A DNA stretch of 64,000 nucleotides from positions 1-64,000 of the forward strand of contig CACNLH010000004.1 of the NCBI GenBank assembly GCA_902621205.1, in the 5' to 3' direction. This stretch comes from an uncultured Alphaproteobacteria bacterium (lineage in GTDB: Bacteria > Pseudomonadota > Alphaproteobacteria > HIMB59). The notes under the pieces were generated by a model. That model had not been told where the DNA came from. It saw only the letters and a list, made by a program, of their open reading frames with translations, and searched no databases. The first letter of the stretch is position 1, and every line of letters starts with the position of its first letter. Shown here one piece after another: positions 49,994 through 64,000 of the stretch. A program made the translations under genes and the position numbers.

Positions 49994-50896
49994 ATGAGAA
50001 AAATAATTCTTACAATTCTTGTATCATTCTTATCTCTTTCTGCATTTGCTGAAAGATATGTAATGGTAACACACGGTGAGGGTAAAGACCCATTCTGGCC
50101 TGTTGTGCAAAAAGGTGGTGAAGATGCTGCTAGACACGTAGGTGCAGATTTTGAATATATCTTCAACCCTTCAGGTGACATGGGTGACATGGCAAAATCA
50201 ATTGCTGCTGCTGCAGCAACTCAGCCTGATGGAATGGTAGTTTCACTTCCAGATCCTGAAGCTTTAGGTCAAGCAATTAAAGACGCTGTTGCTGCTGGTA
50301 TTCCAGTCATCACAATGAACTCAGGTCTTGAGTCTTCTGCTTCACTTGGTGCATTAATGCACGTTGGTCAGCCTGAATACCTTGCTGGTCAATCTGCTGG
50401 TGCAAGAGCAAAAGCAGAAGGTGCTACAAAAGCTCTTTGCATGATTCAAGAAGCATACAACACAGCTTTGACAGATAGATGTGGTGGTTACGGTGAAGCT
50501 ATTCCTACTGAATTAGTAGATAGCTCAAACGATCCAGCTACTATCCCAACAAGAGCTGCTGCTGGTTTACAAGCAAACCCAGATGTTGATGCAGTATTAT
50601 CAGTTGGTCCGCACGTTTGTGTTGGAGTTCAACAGGCTATCGATGAGTTAGGTATGTCAGTACACCACTCTTGTTTTGACTTAAGCCCACCTGTTATGGA
50701 CTTAATCAATGAGGGTAAAGTTGCTTTCACAATTGACCAACAACAACGTCTACAAGGTTATATGCCTGTTGTAGTATTACACTTATACAACAACGGTGCT
50801 GGCCTTTTACCTGGTGCAAATATTCCATCAGGTCCAGGATTTGTTGACAAGTCAAATGCTTCATCAGTTGCTGCTTTAGCAGGTATTGATAGATAG
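49994..50896 (+). CDS. Sugar ABC transporter substrate-binding protein
   Basis: Signal peptide MRKIILTILVSFLSLSAFA; periplasmic-binding-protein fold; followed by permease and ATPase. Confidence 0.85.
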   Translation: MRKIILTILVSFLSLSAFAERYVMVTHGEGKDPFWPVVQKGGEDAARHVGADFEYIFNPSGDMGDMAKSIAAAAATQPDGMVVSLPDPEALGQAIKDAVAAGIPVITMNSGLESSASLGALMHVGQPEYLAGQSAGARAKAEGATKALCMIQEAYNTALTDRCGGYGEAIPTELVDSSNDPATIPTRAAAGLQANPDVDAVLSVGPHVCVGVQQAIDELGMSVHHSCFDLSPPVMDLINEGKVAFTIDQQQRLQGYMPVVVLHLYNNGAGLLPGANIPSGPGFVDKSNASSVAALAGIDR

Positions 50897-50916
50897 TATA
50901 ATCTTATAAACTTTGA

Positions 50917-50949
50917 AAAGTGGGTATTAAACTGCCCACTTTTTTTTTA
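50917..50949 (+). terminator. Hairpin plus T-tract between solute-binding protein and permease genes
   Basis: AAAGTGGG-TATTAAACTG-CCCACTTT followed by a run of T. Confidence 0.85.
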
Positions 50950-51003
50950 AATTTAAGTAAAATTAAACTGAATGACTTTTATTAAAATTATATAAAATAA
51001 AAT

Positions 51004-52593
51004 ATGGCAATAACCTCTACTCCCCAAAGACAAGAGTCTGATAGGCATCAAAAGAAAACTTGGCTTACCACACTGGTTTCAAGACCAGAAATTGGACCTA
51101 TCGGAGTTATGCTCCTTTTATTTGGAATGCTTGGTTATTTCTCCATCCCTACTGGTGAAATGTCTTGGAACCCTTTTACAGGCGAGGGTTTTAATGCATT
51201 AGGTATTAGAAACTTTCTAAGAGTTATATCTCAACTTGGTATCATAGCAATTGGTGCTGGTCTATTAATCATAGCAGGTGAGTTTGACTTATCTATTGGA
51301 TCCATGATTGGTTTCGCAGGAGCCTGTATGGCAATGATTCTTAGATGGGGTTTTTCATTTATTGTGCCCTACATATCTTTTGAGGGAGGTTTCCATATAG
51401 AATTTTATACGGTTTTCCACATTGCTGATGTTTCCCCAATACTAGCAATATTTATTACTTTATGTTTCACACTTTTTTTTGGATGGATACAAGGTACCAT
51501 TGTAGTTAGATCAGGCTTACCTTCTTTCATTGTTACCCTTGGTGGATTATTTTTTTTAAGAGGACTTACAGAAGTATCTCTACGCTCTTTCAATCATAGA
51601 CCAGATCAAGCTAAAGGCGCTACAACAGTTACAGAAATCCCAGATATTAAAAATATTGTAAATGTCCCCGGACATGGTGAAATGGTTCGTGAAAAAGCAA
51701 AAGCTCTTCCAGAAGCTGACCTTGTTTCTTTAGCTCAAACATTACCAGCTGATACAGTCGCAGCAATAACTGAAAGACTCGAATATACATATCAAAGGGT
51801 AGCAGATGCCAAAACTCAAATTTTGGTGGATAAAGGCACCAAACCTTTGCAAGAAGCTCTATTAAATGCTCAGGCTACCGGAAACGAATATATGGTTGGG
51901 ATGATACAAGAAAAAATTGCTAACTTTCAAATTGATCCCGTTGTTGCAAAAACTGTTACAGATGTTGATATAGCAAGGGTTTATATAGACTCATTATACT
52001 CAGCTCAACCTGTCGCTAACTTTTTTGGTGGAGATATTTTAGAGCCTGTATTTGATTGGTTATATTTTCCAATTGATTGGAATACCAATAATTTTGGAAA
52101 TCAATTTGCCCCTGGGTTATACTCGTGTGTAATGATTTGGCTTATTATAGCCATAATCTGTTATGTTGTTTTAAGTAGAACACAGGCCGGTAACTGGATT
52201 TATTCTACTGGTGGAAACTTAAGTGCCGCTAAAGCTAATGGTGTGCCCACAGATAAAGTTAAAGTATCTCTATTTATGTTTTCTGCTTTTTGTGCAACTG
52301 TATTTGCAACTTGCCAAGTTTTCGAGGTTAATACCGCAGATGCAGCTAAAGGAAATTTAAAAGAATTAGAGGCGATTGCTGCTGCTGTTATTGGTGGTGT
52401 CGTACTAACAGGTGGTTTTGGAACAATTTTAGGTATATGTGTTGGTGCATTTATTTTTGGAATAGCAAAAGAGGCTTTCTTCTATATACCTGGAATTGAT
52501 GGATCATTTTATAGAGTATTTTTAGGGTTAGTGATCATAGCCTCTGCACTAACTAATGAAAATATCCGAAAAAGAATCATAGGAAGCATATAA
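51004..52593 (+). CDS. Sugar ABC transporter permease with large hydrophilic insert
   Basis: AGEFDLSIGSMIGFAGA and VIGGVVLTGGFGTILGICVGA motifs; 529 aa. Confidence 0.88.
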   Translation: MAITSTPQRQESDRHQKKTWLTTLVSRPEIGPIGVMLLLFGMLGYFSIPTGEMSWNPFTGEGFNALGIRNFLRVISQLGIIAIGAGLLIIAGEFDLSIGSMIGFAGACMAMILRWGFSFIVPYISFEGGFHIEFYTVFHIADVSPILAIFITLCFTLFFGWIQGTIVVRSGLPSFIVTLGGLFFLRGLTEVSLRSFNHRPDQAKGATTVTEIPDIKNIVNVPGHGEMVREKAKALPEADLVSLAQTLPADTVAAITERLEYTYQRVADAKTQILVDKGTKPLQEALLNAQATGNEYMVGMIQEKIANFQIDPVVAKTVTDVDIARVYIDSLYSAQPVANFFGGDILEPVFDWLYFPIDWNTNNFGNQFAPGLYSCVMIWLIIAIICYVVLSRTQAGNWIYSTGGNLSAAKANGVPTDKVKVSLFMFSAFCATVFATCQVFEVNTADAAKGNLKELEAIAAAVIGGVVLTGGFGTILGICVGAFIFGIAKEAFFYIPGIDGSFYRVFLGLVIIASALTNENIRKRIIGSI

Positions 52594-53384
52594 TGAGTCA
52601 AGATAATCAAGCTCCATTTATTGAAATTACAAATTTAGTTAAAAAGTTTGGTACATTCACAGCACTGAACGGAGTCTCCTTAAATGTTTTACCTGGAGAG
52701 GTTCACGCACTACTTGGTGATAATGGTGCAGGAAAGTCAACTTTGATAAAAGTTTTATCTGGTGTTCACAAACCTACATCTGGTGTTATTAAAGTTGCTG
52801 GAAGTGAAGTGAAATTTGGATCTCCAAGAGAAGCTACGAGTGCAGGCATAGGAACTGTTTATCAAGATTTAGCACTGAACGCACTTACTTCGGTTACTAG
52901 AAACTTTTTTTTGGGCAATGAGTTAAAAAAAGGTCCAGGACCACTTGGAATTTTAGACTTTAAAAATATGAATGAAATTACTATTGCTGAGATGGGTAAG
53001 ATAGGAATAAATATCTCTGATCCGACTCAGTTAGTAGGTACGATGTCTGGAGGACAGAGACAAACTTTGGCGATTGCTAGAGCGATATACTTTGGAGCTA
53101 AAATATTAATCTTGGATGAACCTACATCTGCACTTGGGCAAAAACAACAAATGGAAGTTTTAAAAACTATTAAAAAAGTCCAACAATTAGGGAATATAGC
53201 TATTATTTTGATTACTCACAATGAAATCCACGCAAGACTTATTGCTGATCGATTTACATTCTTAAGCTTAGGTGAAGTAATAGGATCTGGAAAGTCATCA
53301 GAATTAGGTGGAGATGATGTTAAGCGTTTAATGGCTGGCGGTGCTCAAATAGGCGATCTAGCTAAAGAGCTTGAAGCTGTATAA
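52593..53384 (+). CDS. Sugar ABC transporter ATP-binding protein
   Basis: GDNGAGKSTLIKVLSG, MSGGQRQTLAIARA, LILDEPTSALG. Confidence 0.92.
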   Translation: MSQDNQAPFIEITNLVKKFGTFTALNGVSLNVLPGEVHALLGDNGAGKSTLIKVLSGVHKPTSGVIKVAGSEVKFGSPREATSAGIGTVYQDLALNALTSVTRNFFLGNELKKGPGPLGILDFKNMNEITIAEMGKIGINISDPTQLVGTMSGGQRQTLAIARAIYFGAKILILDEPTSALGQKQQMEVLKTIKKVQQLGNIAIILITHNEIHARLIADRFTFLSLGEVIGSGKSSELGGDDVKRLMAGGAQIGDLAKELEAV

Positions 53385-54289: not shown

Positions 54290-55294
54290 TTAATCAATAT
54301 TCTCCATCCTCCCACTTTTGACAGATTTATAAGCAGTTTCGGCTAAGAGAAGAGCTCTTCTTCCGTCCTCAAAGCCAACAGATACAGGCTTTTTTTCCAA
54401 AATTGTTTCAACAAATGAGCTAATAGAATTCATATAAGACTCCTGGTATCTCTCAATAAAAAAATTTAAATAGGGTTCACTTTTGTCAACAAACTCTGAA
54501 TTGTATTTTTTCAATTCATGTGGCTTTCTATTTTCAGATATAACCATCCCTTTGCTTCCAAACAACTCAACTCTTTGATCATATCCATAAGTTGCTGATC
54601 TAGAGTTGTTTATATGACATTGTTTTCCCGAGGCTGTTTCCATTATAATCATCAAGGTGTCACTATCATTTAATTCAGATTTAATTTTTGGATCTATTAA
54701 AGCATTAGAAATTGCAAATACCTTAACTGGCTCTTCACCAAGCATAAAACGGGCTAAATCAAAATCATGAATTGTCATATCTCTAAATTGCCCACCAGAC
54801 ACTTTTAAATAATCCCAACTTGGCAGACCTGGATCTCTAGATGTAATCAGACATTGATGAAGCTCACCAATTTCACCATTAATAAAAGATTTTTTTGCAG
54901 CCTGATGACCAGGATCAAATCTTCTATTAAAGCCTAATTGAATTGGAACTTTATTACCTTCAAGTCTTTTTGAAAACTCATCAACTTTATTTATATCGAG
55001 GTCAATAGGTTTCTCACACAAAACAGGTTTTTTTGATGCAACAGATCTCTCTATGAAATCAATATGTGTATTTGTAGGGGAAGAAATAAGAACAGCATCA
55101 ATATCATTATTGTTAAAAATATCATCAACATTTTCCACAGCAAATACGTTTAAATCATTTGATACTTTTTTTGCAAATTCTTCATTTGGGTCATAAATGC
55201 ATACTAAATTTGTCTGTTCATGAAGTTGAATATTCTTAGCATGCATTTGGCCAATTCGCCCGCACCCAATAACTGCAATACTAACTTTTTTCAT
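54290..55294 (-). CDS. iolG: Gfo/Idh/MocA oxidoreductase, inositol 2-dehydrogenase-like
   Basis: IAVIGCGRIGQMHAKNI, LCEKPIDL, GFNRRFDPGHQAAKK, GGQFRDMTIHDFDLARFMLGEEP. Confidence 0.8.
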   Translation of the reverse strand: MKKVSIAVIGCGRIGQMHAKNIQLHEQTNLVCIYDPNEEFAKKVSNDLNVFAVENVDDIFNNNDIDAVLISSPTNTHIDFIERSVASKKPVLCEKPIDLDINKVDEFSKRLEGNKVPIQLGFNRRFDPGHQAAKKSFINGEIGELHQCLITSRDPGLPSWDYLKVSGGQFRDMTIHDFDLARFMLGEEPVKVFAISNALIDPKIKSELNDSDTLMIIMETASGKQCHINNSRSATYGYDQRVELFGSKGMVISENRKPHELKKYNSEFVDKSEPYLNFFIERYQESYMNSISSFVETILEKKPVSVGFEDGRRALLLAETAYKSVKSGRMENID

Positions 55295-55353: not shown

Positions 55354-55410
55354 AATTTAAGTATTCTTTAAAAGGTTTATTTATCTATAATCTTTTCATA
55401 GGAGGGGTTT

Positions 55411-56322
55411 ATGAAAGCAAAATTGGGAATAGCACCTATAGCATGGTCCAATGATGATTTACCTGAACTTGGAGGAGAGACTTCTTTGGATACTTGCCTT
55501 AGTGAGTCAAAACTTGCTGGATTTACTGGTGTGGAAACAGGTGGAAAATTTCCAAAAACTCCTGAAAAACTTGGTCCAATTTTAAAAAATCACAAACTAT
55601 ACTTGGCATCAGGGTGGTATTCAGGAACTGTGCTAGATAATGACCTAGAAAATGAAAAAGATAAAGTCCTTCAACAACTCACTCTCTTCAGAGACCTAGG
55701 CGCAGCAGTTTTAGCATATGGAGAAACATCTGGAACTATCCAAAATATTAGACATGCTCCTTTAAACACAAAAAGAAAAATACATAGTGAGGATTTTAGA
55801 GAGTATGGAAGGAAACTAACATTATTTGCAGAATTTTGTGCAGATTTTGGTGTGCCAATTTCATTTCATCATCACATGGGTACAGCGATTGAGACTGAGG
55901 ATGAGCTTGATAAATTGATGAACCACACGGGTGAGGCAGTAAAAATCTTATTTGATACAGGCCATATGACCTTTGCAGGAGGCAACTCTTTGAGAGTAAT
56001 AAATAAATACGCAAAAAGAATAAATCACTTTCATGCTAAAGACATTCGCTCAAAGGTTGTAAATGATTTAGATCGATCAAAAAAAAGTTTTTTAGATTTT
56101 GTATTAGAGGGAGCCTTCACAGTGCCTGGAGATGGAAATATTAATTTTAAGGAAGTAGTTGAGACATTATCAAATAATAATTATGAAGGATGGTTCATTG
56201 TTGAGGCAGAGCAAGATCCCGCCAAAGCAAACCCATTTGAATATGCTAAGATTGGAAATAAAGAACTCGTAGAATGCTTAAGTATGTATGGATATGAAAT
56301 AGAGGATTATAGAGATGAATAG
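55411..56322 (+). CDS. iolE: Myo-inosose-2 dehydratase-like protein (AP endonuclease 2 / sugar isomerase fold)
   Basis: MKAKLGIAPIAWSNDDLPELGG, FHHHMGTAIETEDELD, FDTGHMTFAGGN, HFHAKDIR. Confidence 0.8.
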   Translation: MKAKLGIAPIAWSNDDLPELGGETSLDTCLSESKLAGFTGVETGGKFPKTPEKLGPILKNHKLYLASGWYSGTVLDNDLENEKDKVLQQLTLFRDLGAAVLAYGETSGTIQNIRHAPLNTKRKIHSEDFREYGRKLTLFAEFCADFGVPISFHHHMGTAIETEDELDKLMNHTGEAVKILFDTGHMTFAGGNSLRVINKYAKRINHFHAKDIRSKVVNDLDRSKKSFLDFVLEGAFTVPGDGNINFKEVVETLSNNNYEGWFIVEAEQDPAKANPFEYAKIGNKELVECLSMYGYEIEDYRDE

Positions 56323-58823: not shown

Positions 58824-58853
58824 TTGTTGGTATTATATTATAAATTCATCAAA

Positions 58854-58870
58854 ATATTCAATTTGAATAT
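58854..58870. promoter_or_regulatory. Perfect inverted repeat in the divergent regulator/ABC-operon region (candidate operator)
   Basis: ATATTCA-ATT-TGAATAT; near-identical 24-nt block at 63649-63672. Confidence 0.65.
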
Positions 58871-58937
58871 ATTTGAGATTAAATCTCTTAATAAATCATG
58901 GATAATTTATATATATAAGGATATTAGGAGGATCAAT

Positions 58938-59981
58938 ATGAACAAACTAATAAAAGTATTAGCTGTTCTAATGTGCTTTTCTTTCGGTTCAGCTAAGGCA
59001 GTTGAAATCGTGTCTTTTAATGCTGCGTCATCTGAGGCTTATGTTGGTGCGTTCGTTAAAGGTATTAAAGCTACAGCAGAGCAATATGGCTATGATATTA
59101 CTGTTTTTGAAAACAACTATAACCAAGCAGAGCAAAACCAACAAGTAGAACAATACTTGTCAAGTGGTGCACTACCTGATGTATTTATTTGGTGGCCACC
59201 TGATGCTGTTGCAGGTTTAGGTTCGTTAAGAAAGCTTGCTAAAACTGGAGTACCAGTTTTAAAAATCAATCAGTTACCCAATGAGCAAGATAAAGCATTC
59301 ATCTTTGGATATGCCGGACCAGATGATAGTCTTCGCGCTTATAACGCAGGTGAGATGATGGTTAAAGCTATGAAGATGAAACAAGCTGCAGGTGGAGATG
59401 GATATAATGTAATTGCATTATCATATCCTCACTCTTACGGTGGATATGGCTTATCAATAAATGCTTTCAAACAAGCTATCGCTGGAACTGACTTAAATCT
59501 TATCGGTGACATCGGTGAGGGATTTGGACAGGCTAACGGTTATAAAGGAGCAGCTAAGCTAATAGCTAAAGTTAAAGATCAGGGAATTCATTTTGTATAT
59601 GGTATGGACGATGCGATCTTAACTGGTGGTATTAAGGCTTTAGAAGAAGCTGGTTATAATGTTGACTGGTATGCAGGTACTGGCAAAAGTGGCAGTGTAG
59701 ATAGTGATGCTGTCATTACAGTTGGTACTGTGTGTAACGGTGATAAGCAGATGATTACTGATGGAAAGCAATTTGGTACTACTCTACAGTCACCTCTTCA
59801 TGAAGGTCAATTAGCTATAGCTCTTGTTAAAGAGTACATGGAGAACGGTAAGCTAGCAAACTACATTAACTTTACACCTAACCCTTCAGTGACTGGTGCC
59901 ACTATGGACTTCACAGCACTTAGAGGTTTTGATGGTAAGTTATATGGCATTAACGAGCTTTGCTCAGGTGCTTGGGACTAA
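58938..59981 (+). CDS. Sugar ABC transporter substrate-binding protein
   Basis: ATG after AGGAGG; signal peptide MNKLIKVLAVLMCFSFGSAKA; Peripla_BP_4-like. ORF-track start 58824 gives an implausible 38 aa N-extension. Confidence 0.88.
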   Translation: MNKLIKVLAVLMCFSFGSAKAVEIVSFNAASSEAYVGAFVKGIKATAEQYGYDITVFENNYNQAEQNQQVEQYLSSGALPDVFIWWPPDAVAGLGSLRKLAKTGVPVLKINQLPNEQDKAFIFGYAGPDDSLRAYNAGEMMVKAMKMKQAAGGDGYNVIALSYPHSYGGYGLSINAFKQAIAGTDLNLIGDIGEGFGQANGYKGAAKLIAKVKDQGIHFVYGMDDAILTGGIKALEEAGYNVDWYAGTGKSGSVDSDAVITVGTVCNGDKQMITDGKQFGTTLQSPLHEGQLAIALVKEYMENGKLANYINFTPNPSVTGATMDFTALRGFDGKLYGINELCSGAWD

Positions 59982-60070: not shown

Positions 60071-61579
60071 ATGTCCACAAATCCAATTCTTAAAATTTCA
60101 AAAGTTTCTAGGACTTTTGGCGCTATACAGGCTCTAAAAGAAGCAAATTTTGAGATAAACGAAGGTGAAATTATGGGACTAGTTGGAGAAAATGGAGCTG
60201 GGAAATCAACTCTTGTTAAAATTATAAGTGGATTTGACCCTGGTTTTAAAGGCAGCTATCAAATCAATGGTAAAGAAGTAAAATTTGAAACGCCTTCACA
60301 AGCAGAGGAGTCTGGCATTGCTATTGCTCAACAAGAATTAAGCTTGATTCCTAATATGTCAGTTGCAGAAAATATTTTTCTTACTGGAGCTAAAGTAAAA
60401 AAATTTGCTACTCTTAATACATTGGCAAAGATGGCACGCCCATATCTTGATGAAGTTGGATTAACTGAAGTAGACCCAACTACTAGAATAAATTTATTAT
60501 CTGTTGGTGAACAACATTTGGTAGAAGTAGCTAGACTAATTTCTAGAGAAGCAAAAATTTTAATTTTAGATGAGCCTACAGCTGCGTTAGGTGAAGCAGA
60601 GAGTCGAAGAATTTTAGAAATGGTTGAGCGTCTTGCTGCAAATGGTAAATCAATAATTTATGTAAGTCATAGACTGGACGAAATTTTTAAGATTACAAAA
60701 AGAATAACAATATTAAGAGACGGAGTAAGTCAAGGTATTCAAGAAACTAAAGATATTGATGTAAATAAACTAGTTGAAATTATGCTTGGAAGAGAATTGG
60801 CAAATATGTTCCCATCAAAAGCTGACCATATAAGTGATGATCCAAAATTAGAGGTAAAAGAACTTTGGCCTGATGGCGTTCTAGAGCCGGTTAGTTTTTC
60901 AGCCTTCAAGGGAGAGATACTTGGGCTCTCTGGGCAACTTGGTAGTGGAGCAGGTGAAGTATTAGCCTCTATAGCAGGTGCACTTCAATCTAGATCAGGT
61001 TCACTCACTTTGAACGGTGAAACCTTTTTACCTAAATCACCAAGTCATGCTATAAAGAAAAAAATTGCATATTGCTCCTCCGATAGAAAAAAAGATGGTC
61101 TTTTTCTTGGACGTCCAATATTTGAGAATTTAACCTCCCCAGCACTTGGTGCGATATCAAAATATGGATTTAACTTTGGCAGTTCCGAGGATAATTATTC
61201 CAGAAATTTAGCAAAAGAGTTCTTAATTGATGTCAAAAGAATGCACGATGAGTCAGGTCTTTTAAGTGGCGGAAATCAACAAAAAGTAGCATTAGGAAAA
61301 TGGCTTTCAATCAAGCCCGATGTATTGCTTGTAAATGAGCCGACAAGAGGTGTTGATGTTGGTGCTAAATCAGAGATATATCAAAGAATGAGAGAATTAG
61401 CAGCAAGAGGAATTACAATTATTTTTGCCTCTACTGATATCCAAGAAATCACATATCTTCCTGACAGGGTGATTACATTTTATAGAGGAATGATGATTGA
61501 TGAACACCGATTAGAAAAAATTAAAACACCTGTTATTCTTAAAGAGATTACTGATCCATTTAACGAGACAAGCCTATGA
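60071..61579 (+). CDS. Sugar ABC transporter ATP-binding protein, two ABC domains (RbsA/MglA type)
   Basis: GENGAGKSTLVKII, second-half SGGNQQKVALGKWL, NEPTRGVDVGAKSEIY. Confidence 0.92.
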   Translation: MSTNPILKISKVSRTFGAIQALKEANFEINEGEIMGLVGENGAGKSTLVKIISGFDPGFKGSYQINGKEVKFETPSQAEESGIAIAQQELSLIPNMSVAENIFLTGAKVKKFATLNTLAKMARPYLDEVGLTEVDPTTRINLLSVGEQHLVEVARLISREAKILILDEPTAALGEAESRRILEMVERLAANGKSIIYVSHRLDEIFKITKRITILRDGVSQGIQETKDIDVNKLVEIMLGRELANMFPSKADHISDDPKLEVKELWPDGVLEPVSFSAFKGEILGLSGQLGSGAGEVLASIAGALQSRSGSLTLNGETFLPKSPSHAIKKKIAYCSSDRKKDGLFLGRPIFENLTSPALGAISKYGFNFGSSEDNYSRNLAKEFLIDVKRMHDESGLLSGGNQQKVALGKWLSIKPDVLLVNEPTRGVDVGAKSEIYQRMRELAARGITIIFASTDIQEITYLPDRVITFYRGMMIDEHRLEKIKTPVILKEITDPFNETSL

Positions 61580-62616
61580 GTGCTATTATCGAAAATAATC
61601 AATTACCTTTTTCTGCAAAGTTTTTGCAATTCTATAAGGATCGCACACTTCTTGCTATTTTATTGTCACTTTTTGCTGTGATGTTTATATATGGAATTTT
61701 TTTCACAGAAAATTATTTAACAATAACCAATTTTAAAGCAATTATTAGAGATGCAGCACTATATGGCATTATGGCTATAGGACTTACATTTGTAACTTTA
61801 TCAGGAAATTTTTTTTTATTGTCATTAAAAGAAACAGCATCTATTTGTGGTGTTACGTTTGCTATGGGTATGGCTACTGGTTTTGGATCACCGGATCTTG
61901 CAGGAAACTTTTTAGTTTCACTATTAGCTGCTTTAGCAGTAGGTGTCGTAAGTGGAGTAATACAAGGATATTTTGTTGGAATGGGAGGCAACCCAATTGT
62001 TGTAACATTAGGTGGAGCAGGCATCCTATATGGTATTGGTGCATGGTGGAGTGATAACCTTGTAATAAACTTTACAAGACCTCATGATGCTGAATGGTTA
62101 GGAACTGGTTCTTTTTTGGGTCTTCCAAGTATCACATGGTCTTTTATTTTAATTGCCATTGCAGCTGAGATAGTTTTAAGACATACAAATTTTGGAAGGA
62201 AAGTTTATTTAGTTGGAGCAAACAAAGCTGCTGGAAAAGCCACTGGCCATGAAAATTTTTCTATGGCGATAATTGTTTTCACAATCTGTTCTGTTTGTTG
62301 TGCATTTGTTGCAGTAGCTTTTGTTGCTCAAATGGATAGTGCTCAATCTAATTATTTTTCTGCAGAATTTGGATCATCAGGTGATATGACTATACTCGTT
62401 ATAGCAACTGTCATGGTTGGTGGAAATTCAATAATGGGTGGTTATGGATCTACTTTAAGGACTAGTTTGGGAGCAATTTTTATTGCTATGGTTGATAATA
62501 TGATGGTTTTACAAGGATTTAATAGCGGACCTAGAATAGTTGGTGTGGGCTTAATGATCGTGTTTAGTATCATTGTTTTTGGTTTATTTGCTAAAGGAAG
62601 TAGGGCTCAGGAATAA
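61576..62616 (+). CDS. Sugar ABC transporter permease
   Basis: BPD_transp_2-like multi-TM; VTLGGAGILYG, VGGNSIMGGYGSTLRTSLGAIF. Confidence 0.87.
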   Translation: MSAIIENNQLPFSAKFLQFYKDRTLLAILLSLFAVMFIYGIFFTENYLTITNFKAIIRDAALYGIMAIGLTFVTLSGNFFLLSLKETASICGVTFAMGMATGFGSPDLAGNFLVSLLAALAVGVVSGVIQGYFVGMGGNPIVVTLGGAGILYGIGAWWSDNLVINFTRPHDAEWLGTGSFLGLPSITWSFILIAIAAEIVLRHTNFGRKVYLVGANKAAGKATGHENFSMAIIVFTICSVCCAFVAVAFVAQMDSAQSNYFSAEFGSSGDMTILVIATVMVGGNSIMGGYGSTLRTSLGAIFIAMVDNMMVLQGFNSGPRIVGVGLMIVFSIIVFGLFAKGSRAQE

Positions 62617-63650
62617 TGGAAAATTTTATAAAAAAGATTACAAAAGATGTAGATCTCTCTTTTGCAATCTTATTATCATTTTGTGTTTACGTATTCTTTG
62701 CAATTAATATTGAAGTTTTCTTTAGCCACAATATTAGTTTCGCTATTCTTGAAAGGTTTGCAGTCTTGGGTCTTGTAGGTTTAGCATTAACAATTTGTAT
62801 AATAGCTGGAGAAATTGATTTATCAATTGGGTCTAACGCAGCCTTATGCGCTGTGATAGTTGTAAAATTAACAGACCCCTTGGGCGCACCATTAGCGATG
62901 CTTATAGGACTTTCAGTTTCAACTTTAATCGGCGTAACACAAGGTTTTGTTATAGCATTCATAAGAATAAGAGCGATTGTGATTACAGTTGGTACTCTAA
63001 TGCTGCTTAGAGGAGTAGCTTTGCTAATTGCTGAAGAAAAAACAGTTATGTTAACGGATTTTAGAGTTCCTGATTTTATTACTACTAAAGTTTTAATGTA
63101 TTTTTCTCCTGCTAGTCTAACGGTTATCTTCATATTCATTTGCGTAGGAATTTTTATGCGTTACACAAAATATGGAAGGGAAATATATGCGATTGGTGGA
63201 GCAAGAAAAGAAGCACTCACTGCAGGTATACCTTTAAGACGCCCAATGATTATAGCCTTTGCGCTGTCAGGTTTTTGTGCCGGTTTTGCTGGAACTGTAA
63301 TTGGTTTGAAATCAGGAACGGCTCAAGGTTTAGGACTACAATACCTTCTTTTAGCAGGAACTGTTGCAGCTTTTGTTGGAGGTGTGAGCATACTAGGAGG
63401 AAAGGGTGGTGTTTTAGGAGCAGCTATCGGAGCTTTAACAGTTAATTTTTTGAATACTGGTCTCGTATTTTATGCACTTCAGGTTCATTTTGTTCAATTA
63501 TTCACATCAGTGCTTTTGGTTATCGTTATAGTTTTTCAAACTATGTCTAGGGTATTTGACTCGCGGCAAGCTAGGAAAGGTCTGCTTGCCACAATTGATG
63601 AACGAAAAACATCTTTGCTGGAAAAAAAGAGATCGGCTTTAGGTAGATAA
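62616..63650 (+). CDS. Sugar ABC transporter permease
   Basis: AGEIDLSIGSNAALCAV, VGGVSILGGKGGVLGAAIGAL. Confidence 0.9.
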   Translation: MENFIKKITKDVDLSFAILLSFCVYVFFAINIEVFFSHNISFAILERFAVLGLVGLALTICIIAGEIDLSIGSNAALCAVIVVKLTDPLGAPLAMLIGLSVSTLIGVTQGFVIAFIRIRAIVITVGTLMLLRGVALLIAEEKTVMLTDFRVPDFITTKVLMYFSPASLTVIFIFICVGIFMRYTKYGREIYAIGGARKEALTAGIPLRRPMIIAFALSGFCAGFAGTVIGLKSGTAQGLGLQYLLLAGTVAAFVGGVSILGGKGGVLGAAIGALTVNFLNTGLVFYALQVHFVQLFTSVLLVIVIVFQTMSRVFDSRQARKGLLATIDERKTSLLEKKRSALGR

Positions 63651-63666
63651 TATTCATTTTGAATAT
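63650..63666. promoter_or_regulatory. Second perfect copy of the inverted repeat, upstream of SDR gene (candidate operator)
   Basis: ATATTCA-TTT-TGAATAT, 54 nt upstream of the SDR ATG. Confidence 0.65.
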
Positions 63667-63720
63667 ATTTGAAGTCAGTAATTTAATTACATATTATATA
63701 ATATAGTCGGAGGAAATTTA

Positions 63721-64000
63721 TGGATAAAGAGAGACTAAAAGGGAAAAATGTCCTTATTACAGGCGCTGCTCAGGGCATGGGCGCTGCGGTAGGAGAGCAC
63801 TTTGCTGCCCAAGGAGCCAAAATTTGTCTAACAGATGTCAACCTTGACGGTTGTAAAGAGGTTGAAGAGAGAATTAGGTCAGCTGGAGGTGAGGCTATTT
63901 CATGTAAAGTAGACGTGCGAAATCGTGAAGATCACGTAGCTGCTGTAAAAGCAACAGTTGAAAATTTTGGTAGTCTAAATGTTTCTATAAATAATGCTGG
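63721..64000 (+). CDS. SDR family oxidoreductase, truncated by window end
   Basis: ATGGATAAAGAGAGACTAAAAGGG... encodes KNVLITGAAQGMGAAVGEHFAAQGA and VSINNAG; GGAGG upstream. Confidence 0.88.

Follow-up and report, generated by a model that had tools for sequence, protein, structure and literature searches.

The one-component regulators SgrR of E. coli and DsvR of Vibrio cholerae are built from an N-terminal helix-turn-helix (HTH) followed by a C-terminal solute-binding domain, SBP_bac_5, which defines the SgrR family. The MarR family (MepR, TcaR) comprises proteins of about 140 aa that consist only of a winged HTH (wHTH) and dimer helices and hold their ligand between the wHTH and the dimer domain. 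The MarR family also has palindromic operators beside a divergent gene. SgrR represses its own gene and activates neighbouring and distant ones (PMC13060122, PMC4021124). Inositol catabolism in Alphaproteobacteria is under the control of the RpiR-type protein IolR in Sinorhizobium (PMC8877191), which belongs to a different protein family, and inositol goes unmentioned in the AEGEAN-169/HIMB59 genome paper (PMC10308909).

The window (the whole stretch of 64,000 nucleotides analysed here) encodes a 561-aa regulator that shares the HTH-then-solute-binding layout with SgrR and DsvR and the winged-helix topology with the MarR family. Unlike SgrR and DsvR, it carries SBP_bac_1/SBP_bac_8 as its sensor in place of SBP_bac_5, has a MarR-like N-terminal domain, and lies in a sugar-ABC and catabolic gene cluster with a defined 13–17-bp palindrome; unlike the MarR proteins, it contains a whole SBP domain. 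This C-terminal domain is related to the extracellular binding proteins of sugar ABC importers (trehalose/maltose-binding proteins, SmoF), whereas a wHTH appears to stand in the regulator where those proteins have a signal peptide. The architecture is SgrR-like; no description of this regulator family was found in the openly accessible literature, subscription journals lying mostly outside the search.

A conserved palindrome between the regulator gene and the importer operon

The earlier note on this DNA had read the 17-bp palindrome ATATTCA-ATT-TGAATAT (site 1; Table 1) as a candidate operator of the divergent HTH-SBP regulator, and a second palindrome beside it as likewise fitting binding by that regulator; the sequence, coordinates and distances given for both agreed with the letters. 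Site 1 is exact; it is separated from the regulator ATG (58823, minus strand) by 30 bases and from the binding-protein ATG (58938) by 67, and the centre of the second palindrome lies 19 bp from that of the first. Of dinucleotide shuffles of the 114-bp intergenic region, 9% contained a perfect 7-3-7 repeat (spacer 3) and 40% some perfect inverted repeat whose arms were at least 7 long with a spacer of 0–8, so that the window alone is no proof that site 1 is functional. In a phylogenetic footprint of eight lineages, namely that of the window and seven others with regulators 62–77% identical to the window's, 15 of the 17 columns of site 1 were invariant versus 10 of 81 elsewhere in the intergenic region (Fisher p = 2e-9), both variable columns falling in the N3 centre. 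The arms were unchanged in orthologues down to 62% regulator identity, whereas the rest of the intergenic region had diverged; this conservation, though not the window by itself, rules out a chance inverted repeat as the origin of site 1. Since the palindrome is kept upstream of orthologues and is not scattered in coding DNA, the main claim of the earlier note is supported, and sequence comparison makes site 1 very probably the docking site of the neighbouring regulator.

The second palindrome fared differently: a 6-1-6 repeat was present in 21% of the dinucleotide shuffles of the same 114 bp, and the palindrome was intact only in near relatives, both arms being altered in the G005 lineage and the repeat broken in G001 and the others. 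Being unconserved and frequent in shuffles, it was dropped as a second operator and is probably incidental.

Table 1 Features of the regulator locus and its surroundings (window positions)
Feature	Position	Strand	Remarks
iolG, inositol 2-dehydrogenase	54290..55294	-	TIGR04380 above cut-off
Operator site 3 (weaker), AAATTCATTTTGAATAA	55337..55353	.	Divergent iolG/iolE intergenic region; 2 mismatches
Candidate -10 box TATAAT of iolE	55386..55391	+	32 bp from site 3 edge
iolE, myo-inosose-2 dehydratase	55411..56322	+	TIGR04379 above cut-off
Regulator, 561 aa	57138..58823	-	MarR-like winged HTH ~1-118, SBP_bac_1/SBP_bac_8 ~201-492; from Pfam, model, Foldseek and family alignment
Candidate -10 boxes of the regulator gene, two overlapping TATAAT	58832..58842	-	Strong TATAAT in near relatives only
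Operator site 1, ATATTCAATTTGAATAT	58854..58870	.	Perfect 7-3-7 palindrome; arms invariant in every orthologous intergenic region found
Second palindrome, GAGATT-A-AATCTC	58875..58887	.	Probably incidental; not conserved past near relatives, common in shuffles
Candidate -10 box GATAAT of the binding-protein/ABC operon	58901..58906	+	30 bp from site 1 edge
Periplasmic binding protein (Peripla_BP_4), first gene of the ABC operon	58938..59981	+	Pfam
Sugar-type ABC ATPase	60071..61579	+	Profile match
ABC permease (BPD_transp_2)	61576..62616	+	Pfam
Second ABC permease (BPD_transp_2)	62616..63650	+	Pfam
Operator site 2, ATATTCATTTTGAATAT	63650..63666	.	Sites 1 and 2 are the genome's only perfect copies
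Candidate -10 box TATAAT of the SDR2 operon	63697..63702	+	30 bp from site 2 edge
SDR2, acetoin-reductase-like SDR dehydrogenase	63720..64000	+	Heads operon; runs past the window

Further sites in the gene cluster and across the genus

The source assembly is a 23-contig draft of 1.30 Mb (86% complete) with the window on contig C4, and it was compared with 51 further genomes of the same genus (52 in all), one of them a single contig of 1,410,127 bp; near relatives that carry names are single-cell 'uncultured Alphaproteobacteria'. The whole 1.30-Mb genome has only two exact copies of the motif, both in one gene cluster and separated by 4.8 kb. The second copy, site 2, begins on the final base of the stop codon of the second permease gene, 53 bp ahead of SDR2 and hence of the next operon, and shares with site 1 the ATTTGA that directly follows the motif; it is kept across the genus, with one mismatch in G005 and a degenerate form in G009. 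The weaker site 3 retains its core, ATTCA-N3-TGAAT, in G033, G040 and G047, and was absent from the G001, G007, G025 and G005 lineages. Neither of these sites, nor the -10 spacing and the class-wide motif family described below, had been part of the earlier note. As further regulon members, the near-matches were rejected: all four 1-mismatch copies elsewhere in the genome, and the two 2-mismatch ones checked, sit in open reading frames.

Beyond SDR2, the operon continues with genes for M24-like, E1 alpha, E1 beta, lipoyl-domain, SSADH-like ALDH, Gfo/Idh, IolC and IolB-like proteins, the lipoyl, M24-like and IolB-like calls coming from inspection and homologue annotation. The lipoyl domain is encoded by a stand-alone reading frame between the E1 beta and aldehyde dehydrogenase genes (L065:15793-16030; C4 ~67793-68030, past the window). 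The iolD gene lies on a different contig (C2), and no operator site was found upstream of it. Another sugar ABC importer is encoded ahead of the iol genes, at 49994-53384, and includes a rhizopine-binding-like protein (NF052284, E 1.8e-70, below cut-off); no near-perfect operator copy was found in this region.

Across the genus, the motif was present in 30 of the 52 genomes, mostly exactly twice about 4.8 kb apart, and a reversed control pattern in none of the 52; most relatives having the cluster carry the pair of sites 1 and 2. Of the 28 genomes with a regulator match 27 had it, versus 3 of the 24 without one, a difference whose p value of 2e-10 is indicative only, since related genomes were counted as independent. 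The importer shows the same pattern of presence and absence as the regulator; the two are gained and lost together, so that co-occurrence with the motif in the genus cannot tell them apart. Site 2 is retained on broken or partial clusters in G013, G024, G044 and G049, and G006 has a single unrelated copy of the motif within a reading frame. In G042 a second regulator, 41% identical, and a Gfo/Idh gene lie between the second permease gene and SDR2 (L069:14209-16961); this regulator adjoins SDR2 and has its own separate perfect ATATTCA-N3-TGAATAT.

The binding protein of the importer shows 100% identity (rounded) in 17 genomes, and 96–99% in lineages whose adjacent regulator is only 72–77% identical, which points to either extreme conservation or recent exchange of the importer operon. 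On one 12-kb contig (G023:C18), the binding protein and a truncated regulator are co-oriented, unlike in all relatives, an arrangement that is probably a chimera of single-cell amplification.

Domain composition of the regulator

SBP_bac_1 was detected by Pfam in the regulator with an E value of 4.3e-19 (70 bits vs a cut-off of 26), and the solved structures closest in sequence to its C-terminal domain are those of trehalose/maltose-binding proteins (PDB 1eu8, E = 3e-16). The N-terminal 118 residues were modelled as a winged HTH (pLDDT 84.5) with a recognition helix at 62–74 and a wing at 78–94, whose nearest fold is that of the MarR family, at a weak Foldseek score (best E 5.7e-3); the full-length AlphaFold model was poor (pLDDT 49) and left out of the argument. 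Among 16 family members, Pfam found SBP_bac_1 and SBP_bac_8 in all, SBP_bac_5 in none, and MarR_2 in eight (best E 2.3e-4), the window regulator having no MarR_2 match at E <= 1. The protein begins with MNRNEITTLLKFVDKTRLLF, followed by the wHTH, and no signal peptide or lipobox was seen by inspection. With a wHTH apparently in place of a signal peptide at the N-terminus, the regulator is predicted to stay in the cytoplasm.

Promoter geometry and proposed mode of action

Candidate -10 boxes, scored with an E. coli-type matrix and not always the top hexamer (e.g. in G001, G033 and G047), lie at a near-constant distance from the operator sites. At site 1, GATAAT (or GATACT/AATAAT) is found at 30–31 bp in 13 of 14 genomes; at site 2, TATAAT/TAGAAT at 30–31 bp in 8 of 10; and at site 3, a -10-like box at 32 bp in all four lineages that retain the site. 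This spacing does not hold in G009 (sites 1 and 2) or, at site 2, in G042. The -35 boxes are poor at all three operator-linked promoters. With the -10 boxes at 30, 30 and 32 bp, the operator centre would fall near -50, just upstream of the weak -35 box, as suits an activator. For the regulator gene, a -10-like TATAAT (58832–58837) is found 16 bp from site 1, and its geometry would place the -35 position of that gene inside the operator, which fits self-repression and is consistent with the autoregulation proposed in the earlier note. The ends of this gene's best -10 boxes are separated from the ATG by 8–13 nt, and no Shine-Dalgarno sequence is visible (58824–58842), suggesting an mRNA with no leader or a very short one.

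The computational analysis shows the sites and how they are conserved, ties them to the regulator family and gives its domain make-up; from this we infer the following mechanism, from binding and dimerisation to the ligand. The MarR-like winged helix of the window regulator would bind the palindrome, presumably as a dimer in which each monomer contacts one ATTCA half-site, while the cytoplasmic SBP_bac_1 domain would sense a transported or catabolised polyol or sugar as its putative ligand. Bound about 50 bp upstream of the start and just ahead of the weak -35 boxes, the regulator would activate three operons, namely the binding protein/ABC importer operon, SDR2...iolC-iolB and iolE-SDR1; on the opposite strand, site 1 overlaps the predicted -35 position of the regulator gene, so that binding would repress it. 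We consider it likely that site 1 is the operator of the 561-aa regulator acting in this manner, as an activator of three operons and repressor of its own gene that senses a polyol or sugar through the SBP domain.

Alternatively, the same regulator could use the same operators as a repressor of the three operons that is released when a ligand binds the SBP domain, following a LacI-like logic. Repression is a frequent mode of action among MarR-type and sugar-sensing one-component regulators. In Sinorhizobium, IolR too acts by repression (PMC8877191). However, the distance from site to -10 box is nearly the same at all three promoters, each site being upstream of the inferred -35 position and the -35 boxes being poor, and a repressor does not need so fixed a spacing; repression of the three operons is unlikely on this evidence, and activation is favoured.

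A class-wide family and its motif

Full-length homologues of the regulator, 27–34% identical, occur in Rhodobacterales, Rhizobiaceae and Skermanella and, by organism count, in Paraburkholderia; where an annotation exists, it nearly always reads extracellular solute-binding protein. In many of them the regulator gene is divergent from a sugar-type ABC operon and is followed by SDR, M24-like, E1 alpha, E1 beta and SSADH-like genes, a set that matches that of the present gene cluster, with the M24-like protein 65–70% identical. The intergenic regions between these regulators and the binding proteins contain palindromes of the type ATCCA-N3-TGGAT. Perfect RTYCA-N3-TGRAY sites numbered 16 there, versus 0.14 expected from shuffles, a comparison that is partly circular and whose exact odds are not to be trusted, since the consensus was broadened (C/T) after the homologues had been viewed. 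A tandem spacing of 21 bp recurs nine times in these intergenic regions.

Separately, apparently stand-alone proteins of about 140–150 aa were observed that are related only to the DNA-binding domain of the regulator (44–49% identical; L075:8816-9142, L076:9403-9810 and L077:16-312), two of them with a tRNA-like gene just upstream.

The homologues also bear on whether the palindrome belongs to a different regulator encoded elsewhere, a reading that draws on the link between protein and site being made through sequence and on the joint gain and loss of regulator and importer. The motif stays beside the regulator family throughout the class, even where the importer genes differ strongly (binding proteins 22–27% identical). 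It does so also where the neighbourhood has changed: in Rhizobiaceae, where other genes flank the homologue, ATCCA-N3-TGGAT or ATCCG-N3-CGGAT is present in intergenic regions close by. The complete 4.2-Mb genome G204 has perfect ATCCA-N3-TGGAT twice, one copy at the regulator. The motif thus tracks the regulator and not one set of target genes. Moreover, HTH_6 (PF01418) gave no match in the whole 86% complete genome, in which positive controls worked, so that an RpiR-type IolR was excluded as the binder for want of a candidate. Another regulator is accordingly very improbable. That the palindrome acts as an RNA or DNA structure (hairpin, terminator), as its perfect inverted repeat and the position of site 2 right at a stop codon might suggest, is scarcely credible, given that its arms are AT-rich, that site 1 lies upstream of both inferred starts and would not be transcribed from them, that the genus conserves the actual letters and shows no compensatory pairs, and that class-wide change leaves the N3 centre intact and recurs in tandem copies spaced by 21 bp.

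Collectively, returning to the regulator as binder, we hold with moderate confidence that a widespread and so far undescribed alphaproteobacterial family of one-component proteins (MarR-like wHTH plus SBP_bac_1), hidden under the label extracellular solute-binding protein, acts as dual regulators through RTYC-N5-GRAY operators, in tandem 21 bp apart in many lineages, and runs an inositol-linked regulon in ocean bacteria of the AEGEAN-169/HIMB59 type.

Significance

If this is true, an abundant and hard-to-grow ocean lineage gains a sugar-type regulon in which operator, regulator and targets are defined and which would be testable in cultivable roseobacters carrying the homologous cluster. The findings also suggest that a group of proteins whose annotation reads secreted binding protein act as transcription factors; these would then be natural counterparts of the fusions of DNA-binding domains with binding proteins that synthetic biologists have built by hand (PMC6079105).
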